Assembly: GCA_026399075.1 (NCBI GenBank) | Contig: JAPLRR010000079.1 | Location: forward strand, 1-64,000 | Direction: 5' to 3' | From: Methylococcales bacterium | Lineage (GTDB): Bacteria; Pseudomonadota; Gammaproteobacteria; Methylococcales; Methylomonadaceae | Length of the DNA stretch: 64,000 bases | Shown: piece by piece, positions 36,605 through 43,357 of the stretch | How the letters are laid out: every line of letters begins with the position of its first letter | Numbering within the stretch: the first letter of the stretch is position 1 | Notes under the pieces: generated by a model | What the model was told of the DNA's origin: nothing | The model's input: the letters and a program-made list of their open reading frames with translations, nothing else | The model's database searches: none | Position numbers and translations under genes: made by a program

Positions 36605-36946
36605 GTTTCAGCAGCTCTAAGCCTTGATATGGTTCAAGGTATTATGTGTAGCCGTTTATTTGGCTTTGGCATCCAAATGGCTAGAAGTTGCCTAACGCGC
36701 CTAATTAATTGATGTTTTTACTATCGGCGCAGGCGGTTGACTTAGGAGTCTTCGGCAACTAAAGGTTTGCAGTGAGTTAACTGGCTGTTATCCGGTTAGC
36801 GTGCTAGCTTAAACAACTTTGGCATTGCGTTATCGTAGGGGCAGTGGTTGTGAATTGCCCAGCTAAGACCAACTACGTTAACAGCCGATGATCAGGTTAC
36901 TTTCTTCCAAAGCATTATTATTAGTGCGTAGTAGGTAGGTGTAGTG

Positions 36947-39900
36947 ATGGCGATAAAGGGTAAACGTTTTTTGTCAGTAGTCATTAACTTGTTATTCGTT
37001 TTTTTGGCGGTGGTTACGGATGTCAGCTCTGCCCCTATTTTGCGTATGGAGGTGGGGCAGCATACCGCCATTATTAACCGGATGGCGGTTGACAAGGAAG
37101 CCAAGTTGTTGGCAACGGTAGCGGATGATAAAACCCTGCGGTTGTGGAATTTGCCAGAAGGTACACTTTACACCACTCTGCGTGTCCCTATCGATGAACA
37201 GTTAAAAGGCGCTTTGTATGCCGTTGCTGTCTCCCCTGATGGTAAAACTGTCATTACGGCAGGGGAAACAATGGATGACCAGAAAAAATTTTCCCTTTAT
37301 GTCTTTGATGTCGAAAAGCGGGTTTTAAAAGCCCGTATTGCCAACCTTCCCAGCGCCATTTTTCATTTGGCTTATTCTAAAGACGGTAAACAGTTTGCCG
37401 CCGCCTTTTCGGGTGGCTTTGGTCTGCGTGTGTGGGATAGCCAAACTGGCAAACTGCTGGCTCAAGACCCCGATTATTCTGAACGCAGCAATTGGTTGGA
37501 TTTTAGCGCGGCTGGTTTGTTGGCCACAGTTTCCCATGATGGTTATGTACGGCTTTACGATGGGCAGTACAAACTGCTTCAAAAAGCCATGCTGAACCCC
37601 CAAGGGAAACCCAGTTCAATTTCGTTTTCAGGCAATGGGCAATTGCTGGCCATTGGTTATGCCAATTTATTGCAAGTGGATATTATTGACCTAAACCTGA
37701 AACCCGTGGCTACTTTACCTGTGGAAAACCTGACGGGTACCAGCGCGTCGATAGTTGAGTGGCAACAAGACAGCAATACGGCCTTGTATGCGGCGGGAGA
37801 CATGAAGACTGCCCAAGGGCGATATGTCATCCGGCATTGGCAGGACATAGGTTCAGCAACCAAAAATTATCGTGATGTGGAAGTCAGCGGCAATATCGTG
37901 ACGGATATTATTGCTTTGCCTAACACTAACGACACTAAAATTGATGTCTTGTTTTCCAGTGCTGACCCCGCTTGGGGAAGCTTGAAAAATGACAGTATGG
38001 TGTATAACAGCCACGCCAACTTATGGGATGCGCGTTTAGTTGAATTGCCCGGAAAAACCTTTGCCATTTCTGAGGACGGTCTGAAAATCGCCTATTCACA
38101 GCATCCAGATGGTGATGATGTCAGTGTTTTCGATATTACCCGCTTAAGCTTGCAAAGCCCTAGCGACAAAGAACTGATAAAGACCTTGTCGCCTGCCATT
38201 ACCGCTAAGCCACACCTTAAAATCACCCATTGGCAGCGTGATGTCCCCGAATTTAATGGGGTAAGGCGGGATTTTGAGGACTATGAAAAATCCTATGCCT
38301 TGGCTATGGAACCCAGTTCAGACCGAGCCTTGATCGGCACTAATTATAATTTGCGTTGGTATGATGGTCAGGGGAAGGCCATTAAAAAAATCCCCGTGAC
38401 TTCGGCTGTCTATGGACTCAGTATTGCAGGGAATGGCAAATTGGCGGTTGCCGCTTTAGGGGATGGGACTCTCCGTTGGTATAGCCTGAGCCCTGGGGAA
38501 GAATTGACCGAATTGGTGGTTTTGTTCCCTTACAACGATAGCAAGGATTGGATCGTTTGGACTAAAGAAGGTTTTTTTGGTAGTTCCGATGGTGGGGGGT
38601 ATCGGTTGGCGGGCTATCATTTAAATAAAGGTGAAACCAAACGACCCGAATGGATAGAATTCTCCCAAATATATCAAGTTTATTATGCACCCGAACTCAT
38701 TTTGCCCAAGTTGTTAAGGCAGGAAGATAAGATTAAGGCCAAGCTAAACACCATTGAAAATGTAGATGACCGCTTCAATAAAAATGCAGTGCCAATCATT
38801 GAACTGGTTGAATATTGCATAAGCCCTAATCATACCGACACCAAAGGTTTTATCAGGACATCACTGGCTAATGAAGTTAAGACGGCAGACTTAGGGTTTA
38901 TGGAAAAGGTCAAGTTGCTCTTGAAGGCCATTGTTGCTTGGATAGACGCATTGTTTGGGGCAGCGCCGCCTGAGTTGGCGCAGCCCGTCCCCCAATTGGC
39001 AAGTGCCGATCCCCTACCCAAAAATCCTATTTGTTACCCCATTACCGGCCAAGGGCAAACCCGGGGGTTTGTCCGTAAAGAAAAAATCCAGGCTACGGTT
39101 TTCCGTAACCAATTGGCCAATAACACTGGCGCTATAGACCTGCATTACGTGGTAAAGCCTAGGGATGGCGGCGTGGGCGATATAGACATTTATGTGAACG
39201 GGCAAATTCAACATAGCCAAAAACAAGTCCAGGCTCTGGCATCTACTGGGCAAACCTTTACCCAAACTATCGCACTAAAAGAAGGTGAAAATGAAATATC
39301 CGTTCATGCTTATGAAAAATCCGGGGGAACTGCCGCCATTTCAGATGCGTTGGACTTGATTAACCCCGCTATACCAAACCGTTCCGCCGAAACAGAAGCG
39401 GCTGATAAGCCAAGGTTGATCGTGGTGGCTGTGGCTATTGACCATTACCAAGCCCCGAACGCCTTGAAATACGCCGTTAAAGATTCTAAGGATTTTTTAG
39501 CCACCGTCAGCGCCAAAAAGAGCCATTCGTATGCTGAGGTTCTGCCATTTCCTTTATTTGATGAGCAGGCGACCTTGGCGAACATAGAAGCGACGTTTGA
39601 TAAAATCGCGGGGCTTATCAATAAGAATGATACCGTTTTGATATATTTGTCTGGACACGGCTTGCGCGATGAGCGGGATTTTTATTTTATACCTTATGAA
39701 GTCAACGACGATAAGCTTGACGAAACGGCATTGTCACAAGGGATTTTAAAGAAAAATATTGCCAAACTATCAATAAGCAACCGGATTTTTATATTTTTGG
39801 ATTCCTGCCATTCAGGAGCGGTTGATTTCGATGGCATTGCCAACGAGGTCACCAGTTTTGACAAAATCAAGCACCAGCTTGGTGATAATGTGTTCATTTT

Positions 39901-40180
39901 GGCGGCTTCAGGCGAAAATCAAGAGGCCCAAGACCAATTTATGTTGGAAAACCATGAGCAAGCCACAAATGGCTTGTTTGCTTATGCGGTTTTGGAAGGC
40001 TTAAACGGACAAGCTCGGCGCTTGGATGACAATATTGTCGATAATTTTAACTTGGGCAATTATGTCCAACGCCGAATTGATGCCATTACCAAAAACCAAA
40101 CCCTTTATAAACAAAAAGCCCGTTTCCAATCTTTGGAAGCGGGGGATGTCTTAAACTTTGATATTACCCATTATGAATAA
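36947..40180 (+). CDS. WD40-repeat protein with C-terminal caspase-fold peptidase domain
   Basis: N-terminal WD40-like blades (LATVADDKTLRLWNLPEG, FGLRVWDSQTGKLLA); catalytic His TVLIYLSGHGLRDE and Cys FIFLDSCHSGAVD. Confidence 0.88.
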   Translation: MAIKGKRFLSVVINLLFVFLAVVTDVSSAPILRMEVGQHTAIINRMAVDKEAKLLATVADDKTLRLWNLPEGTLYTTLRVPIDEQLKGALYAVAVSPDGKTVITAGETMDDQKKFSLYVFDVEKRVLKARIANLPSAIFHLAYSKDGKQFAAAFSGGFGLRVWDSQTGKLLAQDPDYSERSNWLDFSAAGLLATVSHDGYVRLYDGQYKLLQKAMLNPQGKPSSISFSGNGQLLAIGYANLLQVDIIDLNLKPVATLPVENLTGTSASIVEWQQDSNTALYAAGDMKTAQGRYVIRHWQDIGSATKNYRDVEVSGNIVTDIIALPNTNDTKIDVLFSSADPAWGSLKNDSMVYNSHANLWDARLVELPGKTFAISEDGLKIAYSQHPDGDDVSVFDITRLSLQSPSDKELIKTLSPAITAKPHLKITHWQRDVPEFNGVRRDFEDYEKSYALAMEPSSDRALIGTNYNLRWYDGQGKAIKKIPVTSAVYGLSIAGNGKLAVAALGDGTLRWYSLSPGEELTELVVLFPYNDSKDWIVWTKEGFFGSSDGGGYRLAGYHLNKGETKRPEWIEFSQIYQVYYAPELILPKLLRQEDKIKAKLNTIENVDDRFNKNAVPIIELVEYCISPNHTDTKGFIRTSLANEVKTADLGFMEKVKLLLKAIVAWIDALFGAAPPELAQPVPQLASADPLPKNPICYPITGQGQTRGFVRKEKIQATVFRNQLANNTGAIDLHYVVKPRDGGVGDIDIYVNGQIQHSQKQVQALASTGQTFTQTIALKEGENEISVHAYEKSGGTAAISDALDLINPAIPNRSAETEAADKPRLIVVAVAIDHYQAPNALKYAVKDSKDFLATVSAKKSHSYAEVLPFPLFDEQATLANIEATFDKIAGLINKNDTVLIYLSGHGLRDERDFYFIPYEVNDDKLDETALSQGILKKNIAKLSISNRIFIFLDSCHSGAVDFDGIANEVTSFDKIKHQLGDNVFILAASGENQEAQDQFMLENHEQATNGLFAYAVLEGLNGQARRLDDNIVDNFNLGNYVQRRIDAITKNQTLYKQKARFQSLEAGDVLNFDITHYE

Positions 40181-42098
40181 GTCTATTGCAAAACTCCTTG
40201 TTGTCCCCTTGTTGTTGATGGCCCAGCAAACAGCCGCACAAGTGTATGGGATTGTGATTGGCATTGATGCCTATAAAAATGTCAACGGTTTGAATGGCGC
40301 TGTTAATGATGCAAAGATGGTGGCAGATGCCCTAAATTCGATAGCGTCCAAACCCGTGACCTTGCTCCTTGATGGCAACGCCACGCGGGAAAACATCAAG
40401 CAAGCCTGGGATAATGTGTCTAGCCAGGCAAAAAAAGGGGACACCGTGTTTTTTACTTATGCCGGCCATGGTTCCCAAGATCATGAGCGGGTTAAAGGGA
40501 CTGAGGCGGACGGCATGGACGAATTTTATGTGTTGGCCAATTTTGCCGTTTCAGGGCCGGAAACGGCTGAAAGGCTGGTTGATGATGATTTGCAGGAATG
40601 GTTCAGCAAGCGCCCTGATTTATCAATAGTGTTGGTGTCCGATTCATGCCACTCAGGGACTATGACCCGTGCCTATAAAAAATCAAAATTAAAATACCGG
40701 AAAATTGACATATCAGGGCTTACTGATGATGCGTTGCCTGTCCCTACCAACCCCGATATCGTCAATGAGCAGGTGACAAAAATGCCGCATGTGATTTCCT
40801 TTGCAGGGGTGCCTGATAATGAGGAAGTGCCTGAGGTCAATATAGAAAACCAACGCCATGGTGCACTCAGCTGGAGTTTTGCCAAAGGCTTGTCAGGTTT
40901 GGCTGATGGTAATGGCGATGGTGCAGTTTCCGTTTCTGAACTTAAAAATTTCTTGCTTGAAAAAGTGCGCATGTCCACGGAGGGCCAGCAACATCCACAA
41001 ATTTCTTTCGTAAACGATGTCGCATTGGCCCAAAAAGCCAAGCCTAATGCCCCTGCAATAGCGTCTGTCATCACTTTGAGTGTCAGTAATGCCCAAGCTA
41101 ACCCTGGCTTAGTCAAAGACGTTGCCGATAACTTAAAAAACGTCCAGTGGCTCACTACTGGACGGGGGGCTTTGGACTGGGATGTGGCCGCAGGCATAGT
41201 GAAAGATAAGGCGGAAAAACCTGTTTTTACGGTTGCGGGTAAAACGGCGACCAAAGCCTATAAACGAAAAGGCCAGCCTACCGAAGCAATAAGCCCACAA
41301 GAGTTTGTTAAACTTTTTCAGCCTTTGGTTGATGAAATGTTGGCCATTACGCTTGCCACCAGCCAAGTTGGCCTGGCAGGTGGTTTGCAGCCGATTTTTT
41401 TTAGTATTGATCAAAATTCAGGCAATGAGGTTTTTGCGAAACAGGTTGTTGGCAAATTATCAGGGATCCAGTTGGTTGATTCTGACCAGGCGGTTTTAGA
41501 ATGGGATGTCGAGGCGGGGGTTGTCCGTAACCAATTTAATGATAGCGTCTATTCCCTGCCTGCTGACGAAAACCAAGCGGGTACGACGAGGGAAGTCAAT
41601 ATGGCCAAAATGGACATTGCGCCGGAAACTATTGGCAAGCTTCAGGCCGTGATTAATAAGTTCCGTTTGGTTGAGCAGATAAAGTTATTAAGCGATGGCA
41701 GTTTGGCGGTCAAGCTTTTGCCTACCGATAAGTTACATGCCAAGGGCGAAGCGGTGACTTTTGAAGTGGGTCGCCTTAAGTACCCCTATTTTACCTTGAT
41801 AAACTTGGCCGTCGATGGCACGGTTAATTTTTTGTACCCGATAGCCAATGATCCTTTAACGGTTTCCGTAGACTCACCTTACAAATTGGCTGATTTGGAA
41901 GTTTCCGCGCCGTTTGGTGCAGATCATTTTGTGGCGATAGCCAGTGACAAACCTTTATCAACCTTACATGAAACCCTGAAAAAACTGAACAATGCCCCTA
42001 ATTCAGTGGAAGAATTAAGGAAAACACTGGATGCCACGTTAAAAGACACAAAATATCAAATCGGCATACACCCCAGTTTTACAGTAAATTCTTTATAA
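40173..42098 (+). CDS. secreted caspase-family (metacaspase-like) protein with EF-hand-like loop
   Basis: signal peptide; catalytic FFTYAGHGSQD and VLVSDSCHSGTMT; DGNGDGAVSVSELKNFL; ATG overlaps the upstream stop (ATGAATAA). Confidence 0.9.
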   Translation: MNKSIAKLLVVPLLLMAQQTAAQVYGIVIGIDAYKNVNGLNGAVNDAKMVADALNSIASKPVTLLLDGNATRENIKQAWDNVSSQAKKGDTVFFTYAGHGSQDHERVKGTEADGMDEFYVLANFAVSGPETAERLVDDDLQEWFSKRPDLSIVLVSDSCHSGTMTRAYKKSKLKYRKIDISGLTDDALPVPTNPDIVNEQVTKMPHVISFAGVPDNEEVPEVNIENQRHGALSWSFAKGLSGLADGNGDGAVSVSELKNFLLEKVRMSTEGQQHPQISFVNDVALAQKAKPNAPAIASVITLSVSNAQANPGLVKDVADNLKNVQWLTTGRGALDWDVAAGIVKDKAEKPVFTVAGKTATKAYKRKGQPTEAISPQEFVKLFQPLVDEMLAITLATSQVGLAGGLQPIFFSIDQNSGNEVFAKQVVGKLSGIQLVDSDQAVLEWDVEAGVVRNQFNDSVYSLPADENQAGTTREVNMAKMDIAPETIGKLQAVINKFRLVEQIKLLSDGSLAVKLLPTDKLHAKGEAVTFEVGRLKYPYFTLINLAVDGTVNFLYPIANDPLTVSVDSPYKLADLEVSAPFGADHFVAIASDKPLSTLHETLKKLNNAPNSVEELRKTLDATLKDTKYQIGIHPSFTVNSL

Positions 42099-42137
42099 CT
42101 ATTCCTAAATATCATCTACGGCGGGAGAAATAGACCA

Positions 42138-43196
42138 ATGAGAAAACAGACACTAGTAGTTACTTTATCGGCTGCATTTTTGGTGGTTGGTTGTGCAAGC
42201 ATGGGTAAAGAGGGTCGGGTAGGGTTGAATGATGGTAGTGACCCTTGTTTTCTCTATCTTGATAAATTGGATGATACCGCCATTTATTATAAAGACCAGC
42301 GGATGCAAGACATTGCCGCTGGCGTGGTTATTGGCGGCGCAACTGGCGTGATGGTTGGTTTGTTGGCCGGTAAGACGGATACAGCGGCAATAATTGGTGG
42401 GCTGGCAGGGGCGGTGGCGGGTGGCTTTGCAGCTGATGCGTATTGGAAAAACAAACTACAAACTTCTAATAACCAAGCAAATCTGGCGGCCAGATCTATT
42501 GAGGGCGATATAAAATCCGATATAAATCGGCTGACCAGTGTTGATAATGATATTGCTGCGCTAGTGCGCTGTAGGACTTTACAGCGCGATAAAATTAAAA
42601 GGTTGTATGCTGAAAGAAAGTTGACCTTACAACAAGCCCAGCAAGAATGGAAAAAGTGGGGGGATGCCCTACGCAAAGACCGGGAGGAAATGAAATACTT
42701 GAATGAAGCGTTGGACAACGTCAAGAAAATCGAAGAATCTTATAATTATGCCGCCACCGCCTCCGAATCATCATTAGTCATTACTGAAGATATGCGGATC
42801 CAATGGCAACAAGAGCTGAATATAGCAGAAGAAAAAGAGCTGGCAGTTGTTGAAGAGACTTATAAGGAAAAATTATCTTCCAAACGGATTAAGTCAAAAG
42901 AAAAAAAGAAACTTAAAAAAGAAAAGAAACAAAAAGATGAAGAAATTAAAAAGAAGTATGTCAGCAAAAAGGCAGAAATAAAAAATACTAAAGTGAACCC
43001 TAAAGGCAACCCAACAAAATTATTGGTTGCAGCGATTCCTGAAAAAACCGAGTCGATTAAAAAACATCAAGGTGAACATGACAATTTGGCAGTCGAAGCA
43101 GCAAATGATACTGGATTTCAAGACATAAGAGGCCAACTGGTGCCAGGTTATAACGGCCCTGAAATGATGGTGTGCCAAGCAACAATTCTGCCATAG
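42138..43196 (+). CDS. lipoprotein with glycine-zipper segment and charged Lys/Glu coiled coil
   Basis: lipobox VVGCASM; VVIGGATGVMVGLLAGKTDTAAIIGGLAGAVAGGFAAD; KSKEKKKLKKEKKQKDEEIKKK. Confidence 0.75.
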   Translation: MRKQTLVVTLSAAFLVVGCASMGKEGRVGLNDGSDPCFLYLDKLDDTAIYYKDQRMQDIAAGVVIGGATGVMVGLLAGKTDTAAIIGGLAGAVAGGFAADAYWKNKLQTSNNQANLAARSIEGDIKSDINRLTSVDNDIAALVRCRTLQRDKIKRLYAERKLTLQQAQQEWKKWGDALRKDREEMKYLNEALDNVKKIEESYNYAATASESSLVITEDMRIQWQQELNIAEEKELAVVEETYKEKLSSKRIKSKEKKKLKKEKKQKDEEIKKKYVSKKAEIKNTKVNPKGNPTKLLVAAIPEKTESIKKHQGEHDNLAVEAANDTGFQDIRGQLVPGYNGPEMMVCQATILP

Positions 43197-43259: not shown

Positions 43260-43357
43260 GGCTACCAACTTAAAGCGGGACATTCGCGAAGCTTAACCGT
43301 TCGCCCTTGCTTGTCGAAGGGTGAACGGTCAAGCCGTCCCGCATTAAGTTGGTAGCC
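43260..43357. repeat. 98-bp near-perfect long palindrome
   Basis: outer arms GGCTACCAACTTAA-AGCGGGAC / GTCCCGCATTAAGTTGGTAGCC; inner arms ACCGTTCGCCCTT...AAGGGTGAACGGT. Confidence 0.9.

Follow-up and report, generated by a model that had tools for sequence, protein, structure and literature searches.

In the 64,000-nucleotide stretch of contig JAPLRR010000079.1 analysed here (assembly GCA_026399075.1; hereafter the window), a Methylococcales bacterium of the family Methylomonadaceae carries three consecutive plus-strand genes, which encode a caspase with a WD40-like propeller (protein 1), a second caspase with a C-terminal DUF4384-like domain (protein 2) and a lipoprotein remotely related to TagQ of the type VI secretion system (T6SS) (protein 3) (for details see Table 1). 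The three open reading frames (ORFs) were found at the positions given by the initial annotation. The first two genes share 8 nucleotides (nt), the start of gene 2 lying over the stop of gene 1 (ATGAATAA at 40173-40180), and genes 2 and 3 are separated by 39 nt, in agreement with its description of translationally overlapping caspase genes in one operon with the lipoprotein gene. The envelope site that it proposed for all three products was supported as well, since proteins 1 and 2 begin with signal-like stretches (MAIKGKRFLSVVINLLFVFLAVVTDVSSA in protein 1) and protein 3 carries a lipobox; the two caspases are thus predicted to be periplasmic. An inverted repeat, which resembles a repeat element or a terminator, lies 3′ of gene 3 at 43280-43345 (ACCGTTCGCCC...GGGTGAACGGT).

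Table 1. Genes, domains and sites of the trio, in window coordinates.
Feature	Position	Strand	Description
Gene 1	36947..40180	+	WD40-propeller caspase (C14), predicted to be exported; 1078 residues counted from a possible GTG start at 36944, ATG at 36947
WD40-like propeller, protein 1	37046..38503	+	residues ~35-520, putative end; WD40 family matches at residues 35-284, Protein Data Bank (PDB) WD40 matches, conservation
Peptidase_C14 domain, protein 1	39425..40126	+	residues 828-1061; Pfam E=8.4e-10
Gene 2	40173..42098	+	caspase (C14) with C-terminal DUF4384-like domain, predicted to be exported; 641 residues
Caspase domain, protein 2	40251..41009	+	residues 27-279; Pfam C14 E=8e-19, metacaspase fold match
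EF-hand-like loop region, protein 2	40902..40955	+	DGNGDGAVSVSE; residues 244-261; sub-threshold, partly conserved
DUF4384-like region, protein 2	41742..41954	+	residues 524-594; well-predicted C-terminal domain
Gene 3	42138..43196	+	TagQ-like lipoprotein, 352 residues; TagQ profile match and zipper-free profile
Lipobox Cys19 codon, protein 3	42192..42194	+	lipobox LVVGC; Cys invariant in 30 homologues
Cys37 codon, protein 3	42246..42248	+	invariant in 30-member alignment
Glycine-zipper hairpin, protein 3	42315..42437	+	residues 60-100; conserved zipper column block
Lys/Arg-rich segment, protein 3	42882..42971	+	57% Lys plus Arg over 30 residues; candidate region for cleavage at basic residues

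Caspase domains and their catalytic residues

The peptidase C14 profile was matched above its cut-off of 21.4 bits by both caspases, with 39.2 bits for protein 1 and 68.7 bits for protein 2, and the intact His/Cys dyads noted by the initial annotation were observed in both, SGHG (H905, codon 39656-39658) and DSCHSG (C955, codon 39806-39808) in protein 1, and AGHG (H99, codon 40467-40469) and DSCHSG (C159, codon 40647-40649) in protein 2. In the wider set of homologues, both dyad motifs were present in all 24 of the second caspases, and GHG together with D-[SAT]-C-x-[SA]-G in 76 of the 90 WD40-caspases, many of the rest being truncated ORFs. The propeller previously assigned to the N-terminal part of protein 1 was recovered by Pfam WD40 above the cut-off (E=2e-15). 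For protein 2, the caspase fold was also supported by structure prediction, a check that the initial annotation had proposed: the model, with a mean predicted local distance difference test score (pLDDT) of just 63.6, matches 3bij, Yca1, MCA2 and MALT1 at E ~1e-6 or better. For protein 1, the fold is assigned from the sequence profile only. DUF4384 was matched above the cut-off in those regions of two relatives (G480 and G610) that are homologous to the tail of protein 2. As a separate observation, one WD40-caspase (L117:7712-10807) bears a lipobox of its own, as though anchor and caspase had fused.

With respect to specificity, D46 and D157 of protein 2 align to D95 and D211 of MCA2, which we take to be its acidic S1 residues, and the equivalents in protein 1, D847 and D953, were taken from alignment columns. 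These two positions are invariant or nearly so in the WD40-caspase alignment, in which H905 and C955 are invariant columns. Since both caspases keep the metacaspase S1 Asp pair, cleavage after Arg or Lys is probable for both. The control by Ca2+ suggested by the initial annotation is weakly supported. The EF-hand-like loop of protein 2 was rejected as a defining Ca2+ sensor, because the EF-hand_5 match is below the cut-off (19.3 versus 25.9 bits) and the DxNxDG segment is missing in several trio members. On the other hand, protein 2 keeps three of the four positions of the separate Ca2+ site of MCA2, presumably formed by four Asp (D116, D137 and D138, with Thr/Arg apparently at the fourth), and control of protein 2 by Ca2+ through this site may be considered. 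The motif of this site is absent from protein 1.

Relation of the lipoprotein to TagQ

A relationship overlooked in the initial annotation became clear for protein 3, of which the best NCBIfam match is TagQ (NF041250; 38.6 bits, E=7e-10). Relatives of the lipoprotein match the same profile with E-values down to 1e-24 (g22 members), all far under its equivalog cut-off, and two members of the family (L039 and L266) match it weakly or not at all. Because glycine zippers draw false matches, a hidden Markov model (HMM) was built from the post-zipper region only. This model picked up two TagQ proteins (G583 and L115) at 1e-10 and 2e-9, the next unrelated ORF being at E=0.2. One of the two is above the NCBIfam cut-off and both adjoin an FGE-sulfatase gene, the fold of which is presumably that of TagR; in G583 the TagQ genes come after the FGE-sulfatase gene. 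Chance resemblance through the glycine zipper was thus ruled out as the source of the likeness, and the many class-wide TagQ matches that proved to be zipper-only were discarded. Protein 3 and TagQ have in common the lipobox, the glycine zipper and a homologous C-terminal region, and we conclude by sequence comparison that protein 3 is a remote TagQ homologue, with homology reaching beyond the zipper.

Of the two features in the earlier designation of protein 3 as a glycine-zipper lipoprotein, the lipobox was confirmed, and the zipper is retained as a conserved column block in which its own profile stays sub-threshold (17.8 versus 25). Besides Cys19 and Cys37, Cys145 (codon 42570-42572) and several glycines are invariant across the 30 members, and a disulphide between Cys37 and Cys145 would be possible. 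The Lys/Arg-rich segment was not retained as a caspase-specific mark, since it is weaker in homologues and not clearly distinct from TagQ. AlphaFold predicts protein 3 to consist of helices throughout, mostly with confidence (mean pLDDT 82) but with low values for the zipper region. A PDB fold search with this model gave no match at E<=0.001, ClyA-type matches being at E ~1, and the identity as a pore-former was accordingly dropped; the pore-like partner imagined in the initial annotation gives way to a TagQ homologue.

Conservation of the trio and its placement in T6SS clusters

The closest relative trio, in G126, has the three genes in the same order with 55, 49 and 48% identity, and G076 keeps caspase 2 and the lipoprotein on a short contig. 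In the g22 genomes and G150 the lipoprotein gene stands 5′ of the WD40-caspase gene as an overlapping or near-adjacent pair, while the order lipoprotein, WD40-caspase, caspase 2 was found in G610, G480, Contendobacter, Competibacteraceae, Magnetococcales, Thiotrichales and Rhodovarius; in Azospirillum the second caspase gene is placed divergently. Species-representative genomes were scanned for such loci, which were annotated by all-ORF HMM scans and codon-usage gene calling. Among the 80 loci listed, the lipoprotein adjoins the WD40-caspase in 45, many of them also with a second caspase; besides numerous Acetobacteraceae, these loci stem from Contendobacter, Competibacteraceae, Magnetococcales, Thiotrichales, Azospirillum and Rhodovarius. 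In each of the 56 pairs checked, both genes run in the same direction, the median gap being 3 nt. The trio is therefore not a chance arrangement, as the same trio recurs in other families and classes. On the WD40-caspase tree (76 rows) the presence of the lipoprotein switches only 3 times, and in the clade of the window 51 of 53 members have a neighbouring lipoprotein (L129 and L136 are cut by contig ends), indicating that the co-conservation of lipoprotein and WD40-caspase is ancient. The initial annotation had named neighbourhood analysis as a test that could refute the trio, and the co-conservation seen here supports it.

The pair was repeatedly found inside T6SS clusters, in genomes of the Methylococcales family, Azospirillum and Acetobacteraceae. 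T6SS genes flank 15 of the 55 lipoprotein loci versus 1 of the 35 WD40-caspase loci without lipoprotein (Fisher p=0.004, uncorrected for relatedness and with duplicate genomes among the loci), and on the 76-row tree T6SS adjacency requires at least 8 changes, in three separate lineages. Representative gene sets are lipoprotein, WD40-caspase, VgrG-type gene, DUF6931, PAAR, FHA-type gene, TssK and TssL-type gene in Roseococcus (L147); second caspase, lipoprotein, WD40-caspase, TssL, TssM-like, TagF-like and VgrG in Azospirillum (L140); and lipoprotein, WD40-caspase, two-partner-secretion (TPS) gene, ShlB, CHAT, FHA and TssK in Methylococcales (L190). The clearest case is G099 (L257/L266), with FHA/TagH, TssJ, TssK, TssL, TssM, TagF, a PP2C phosphatase, the lipoprotein, the WD40-caspase, a Ser/Thr kinase with DUF4384 and a second kinase. 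In Pseudomonas aeruginosa the gene order is tagQ-tagR-tagS-tagT-pppA-ppkA (PA0070-PA0075), and the pair in G099 occupies a place like that of TagQRST, beside the PP2C and kinase genes. No FGE-fold TagR was detected among the labelled recurrent neighbours of the trio; the FGE gene next to the TagQ pair of G583 was the sole case.

Other envelope caspases are associated with the T6SS in this family. The T6SS of the host genome itself, on contig C74, includes a Ser/Thr kinase in which a hydrophobic segment is followed by a C-terminal DUF4384, and this kinase and protein 2 are the only DUF4384 proteins of the genome (93% complete). The same cluster (L050, L213 and L214) encodes a 2147-residue ESPR/TPS/MBG/GLUG/WD40/caspase exoprotein of the two-partner-secretion type with intact dyad, together with TpsB, and further a second TPS pair (with a 1655-residue TPS-like protein), a CHAT-TPR-like protein and FHA. 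At eight loci chosen for a caspase near TssK (L218-L225), caspase lipoproteins with Sel1 repeats, their dyads intact, are encoded immediately 5′ of FHA-TssK-TssL-TssM-TagF or at a distance of a few genes, near a Ser/Thr kinase. Such a Sel1-caspase lipoprotein was present within ~10 kb in 5 of 40 T6SS loci of the host family sampled regardless of caspases. In view of the Sel1-caspase lipoproteins and the C74 exoprotein, envelope caspases are a recurrent accessory of T6SS clusters in the host family. Two side observations concern related arrangements. In G022, a lipobox-bearing caspase (L268:9316-10821; C14 E=2e-36) lies directly 5′ of FHA-TssK in a T6SS cluster, and the genome carries a lipoprotein/WD40-caspase pair elsewhere. 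In G153 (L126) and G079 (L127), two caspases and a CHAT-TPR protein stand beside contractile sheath/tube-like genes, as of an extracellular contractile injection system, the sheath being identified by eye.

A candidate module for sensing envelope damage

In P. aeruginosa, TagQ recruits TagR, and PpkA is activated upon damage of the outer membrane (PMC6657622, PMC11881912). By analogy, we propose that the trio is a module for sensing and relay of envelope damage, in which periplasmic metacaspases stand in for TagR as partners of a TagQ-like lipoprotein, and we give this reading a probability of about one half. The lipoprotein, predicted to reside in the outer membrane, would tether or recruit the periplasmic WD40-propeller metacaspase as TagQ does TagR, its most likely role in view of the homology to TagQ and the gene position, and the second, DUF4384-tailed metacaspase, co-translated with the first, would also be periplasmic. 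Damage of the envelope would rearrange the complex and activate the peptidases, with predicted cuts after Lys or Arg. The cut signal would then be relayed. In T6SS-bearing hosts its probable recipients are DUF4384-tailed Ser/Thr kinases of the inner membrane, from which it would reach FHA and the T6SS, and in T6SS-less hosts it would go to some other output. More tentatively, the periplasmic caspases may be the sensor and relay of the T6SS threonine-phosphorylation pathway itself, the TagQ-like lipoprotein passing the damage signal to caspases instead of TagR for a protease-triggered counter-attack, and the cassette being re-used as a free-standing alarm in bacteria without T6SS.

Several observations weigh against the proposal of a damage-sensing relay. 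The window trio is not adjacent to T6SS genes, those of its genome being on another contig, and the TagQ match of protein 3 does not attain the equivalog cut-off of 300 bits. The T6SS is common in the host family (86 of 201 genomes), and the seven T6SS-bearing genomes among the nine with a clear lipoprotein match make the association at genome level only suggestive. Moreover, module genes are present, but neither TssC nor TssK was detected, in G126, a complete genome, in G610 and in G076, which is incomplete, and no DUF4384 match at all was obtained in G126. The trio can therefore act without T6SS.

This independence would also be expected if the trio served quality control of periplasmic and outer-membrane proteins, the propeller recruiting misfolded proteins, the peptidases degrading or processing them and the lipoprotein tethering the assembly, with the T6SS link incidental. 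WD40 is a generic docking domain and other families of glycine-zipper lipoproteins have roles in envelope homeostasis, but neither the recurrent insertion into T6SS clusters beside PP2C, kinase and FHA genes nor the shared DUF4384 would be explained, and we regard this reading as unlikely. Still less likely appears a self-destruction of the envelope, as programmed death or against phages, in which damage or infection would set off a caspase cascade that cleaves the lipoprotein into a membrane lesion. The glycine-zipper hairpin of the lipoprotein is indeed hydrophobic, its Lys/Arg-rich segment might be cleaved by a caspase specific for basic residues, and C14/CHAT proteases are used by bacterial gasdermin operons (PMC9612521). 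However, the domain scan of the trio revealed neither a gasdermin, an identity that was dropped, nor a known effector domain, and the fold search described above gave the lipoprotein no significant match. PADLOC matched its caspase model to proteins 1 and 2, and this generic model and a weak HEAT model were all that it gave among the three proteins, the rest of the window not being exhaustively scanned. Most defence systems are mobile and act in the cytoplasm, unlike the trio, which is predicted to be exported and forms a stable pair on the tree. The cell-death module suggested by the initial annotation received little support, and the neighbourhoods favour envelope sensing tied to Ser/Thr kinase signalling and T6SS. 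Very improbable is that the caspases are T6SS effectors, or immunity or accessory cargo, toxins to be delivered or neutralisers instead of sensors; they do lie near VgrG and PAAR in the Acetobacteraceae loci, but the signal peptides or N-terminal anchors imply Sec export instead of T6SS loading, the module is also found in genomes that have no T6SS, and in G099 it stands between PP2C and kinase genes, not by VgrG.

The proposed sensing module brings together protein families that are known, in an envelope arrangement that is new and conserved. With the TagQ-TagR(-TagS-TagT)/PpkA/PppA pathway of the P. aeruginosa H1-T6SS it shares a homologous lipoprotein, which bears a lipobox, a glycine zipper and two Cys that are invariant, and in relatives it has the neighbours of that pathway (PP2C, Ser/Thr kinase, FHA/TagH, TssK/L/M and TagF). 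In contrast, the lipoprotein is partnered by one or two caspases instead of an FGE-fold TagR, TagS and TagT were not seen among the recurrent neighbours of the trio, and the module also occurs away from T6SS, as in the window, and in T6SS-less genomes. With prokaryotic metacaspases or orthocaspases it shares the caspase domain, the His/Cys dyad and the acidic S1 residues, and WD40 is their commonest partner domain (PMC3501461), but the trio is predicted to be exported, is linked to a lipoprotein and includes a second, DUF4384-tailed caspase. The Sel1-caspase lipoproteins are likewise membrane-anchored envelope caspases, but with Sel1 repeats and a lipobox of their own and without TagQ-like partner. 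With bacterial gasdermin operons the trio has in common that C14/CHAT proteases are encoded together with a candidate membrane-active protein, but it shows no gasdermin and is predicted to be exported, not cytoplasmic. The terms 'type VI' and 'periplasm' do not occur in the text of the 2012 survey of prokaryotic metacaspase operons (PMC3501461), and no work joining a caspase with TagQ was found in the literature, with most subscription papers outside the scope of the search. The papers on metacaspase and T6SS appear, by title and abstract, unrelated to the trio, and the module is not described in the passages and abstract examined for peptidase C14/caspase family protein and type VI secretion.

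The sensing of local damage upstream of T6SS activation has been called unresolved in P. aeruginosa (PMC11881912), and most prokaryotic caspases have no known role; a conserved cassette of TagQ-like lipoprotein and caspase in the sensor region of the T6SS joins both questions. If our proposal is correct, caspase proteolysis would be located in the bacterial envelope, not in the cytoplasm.

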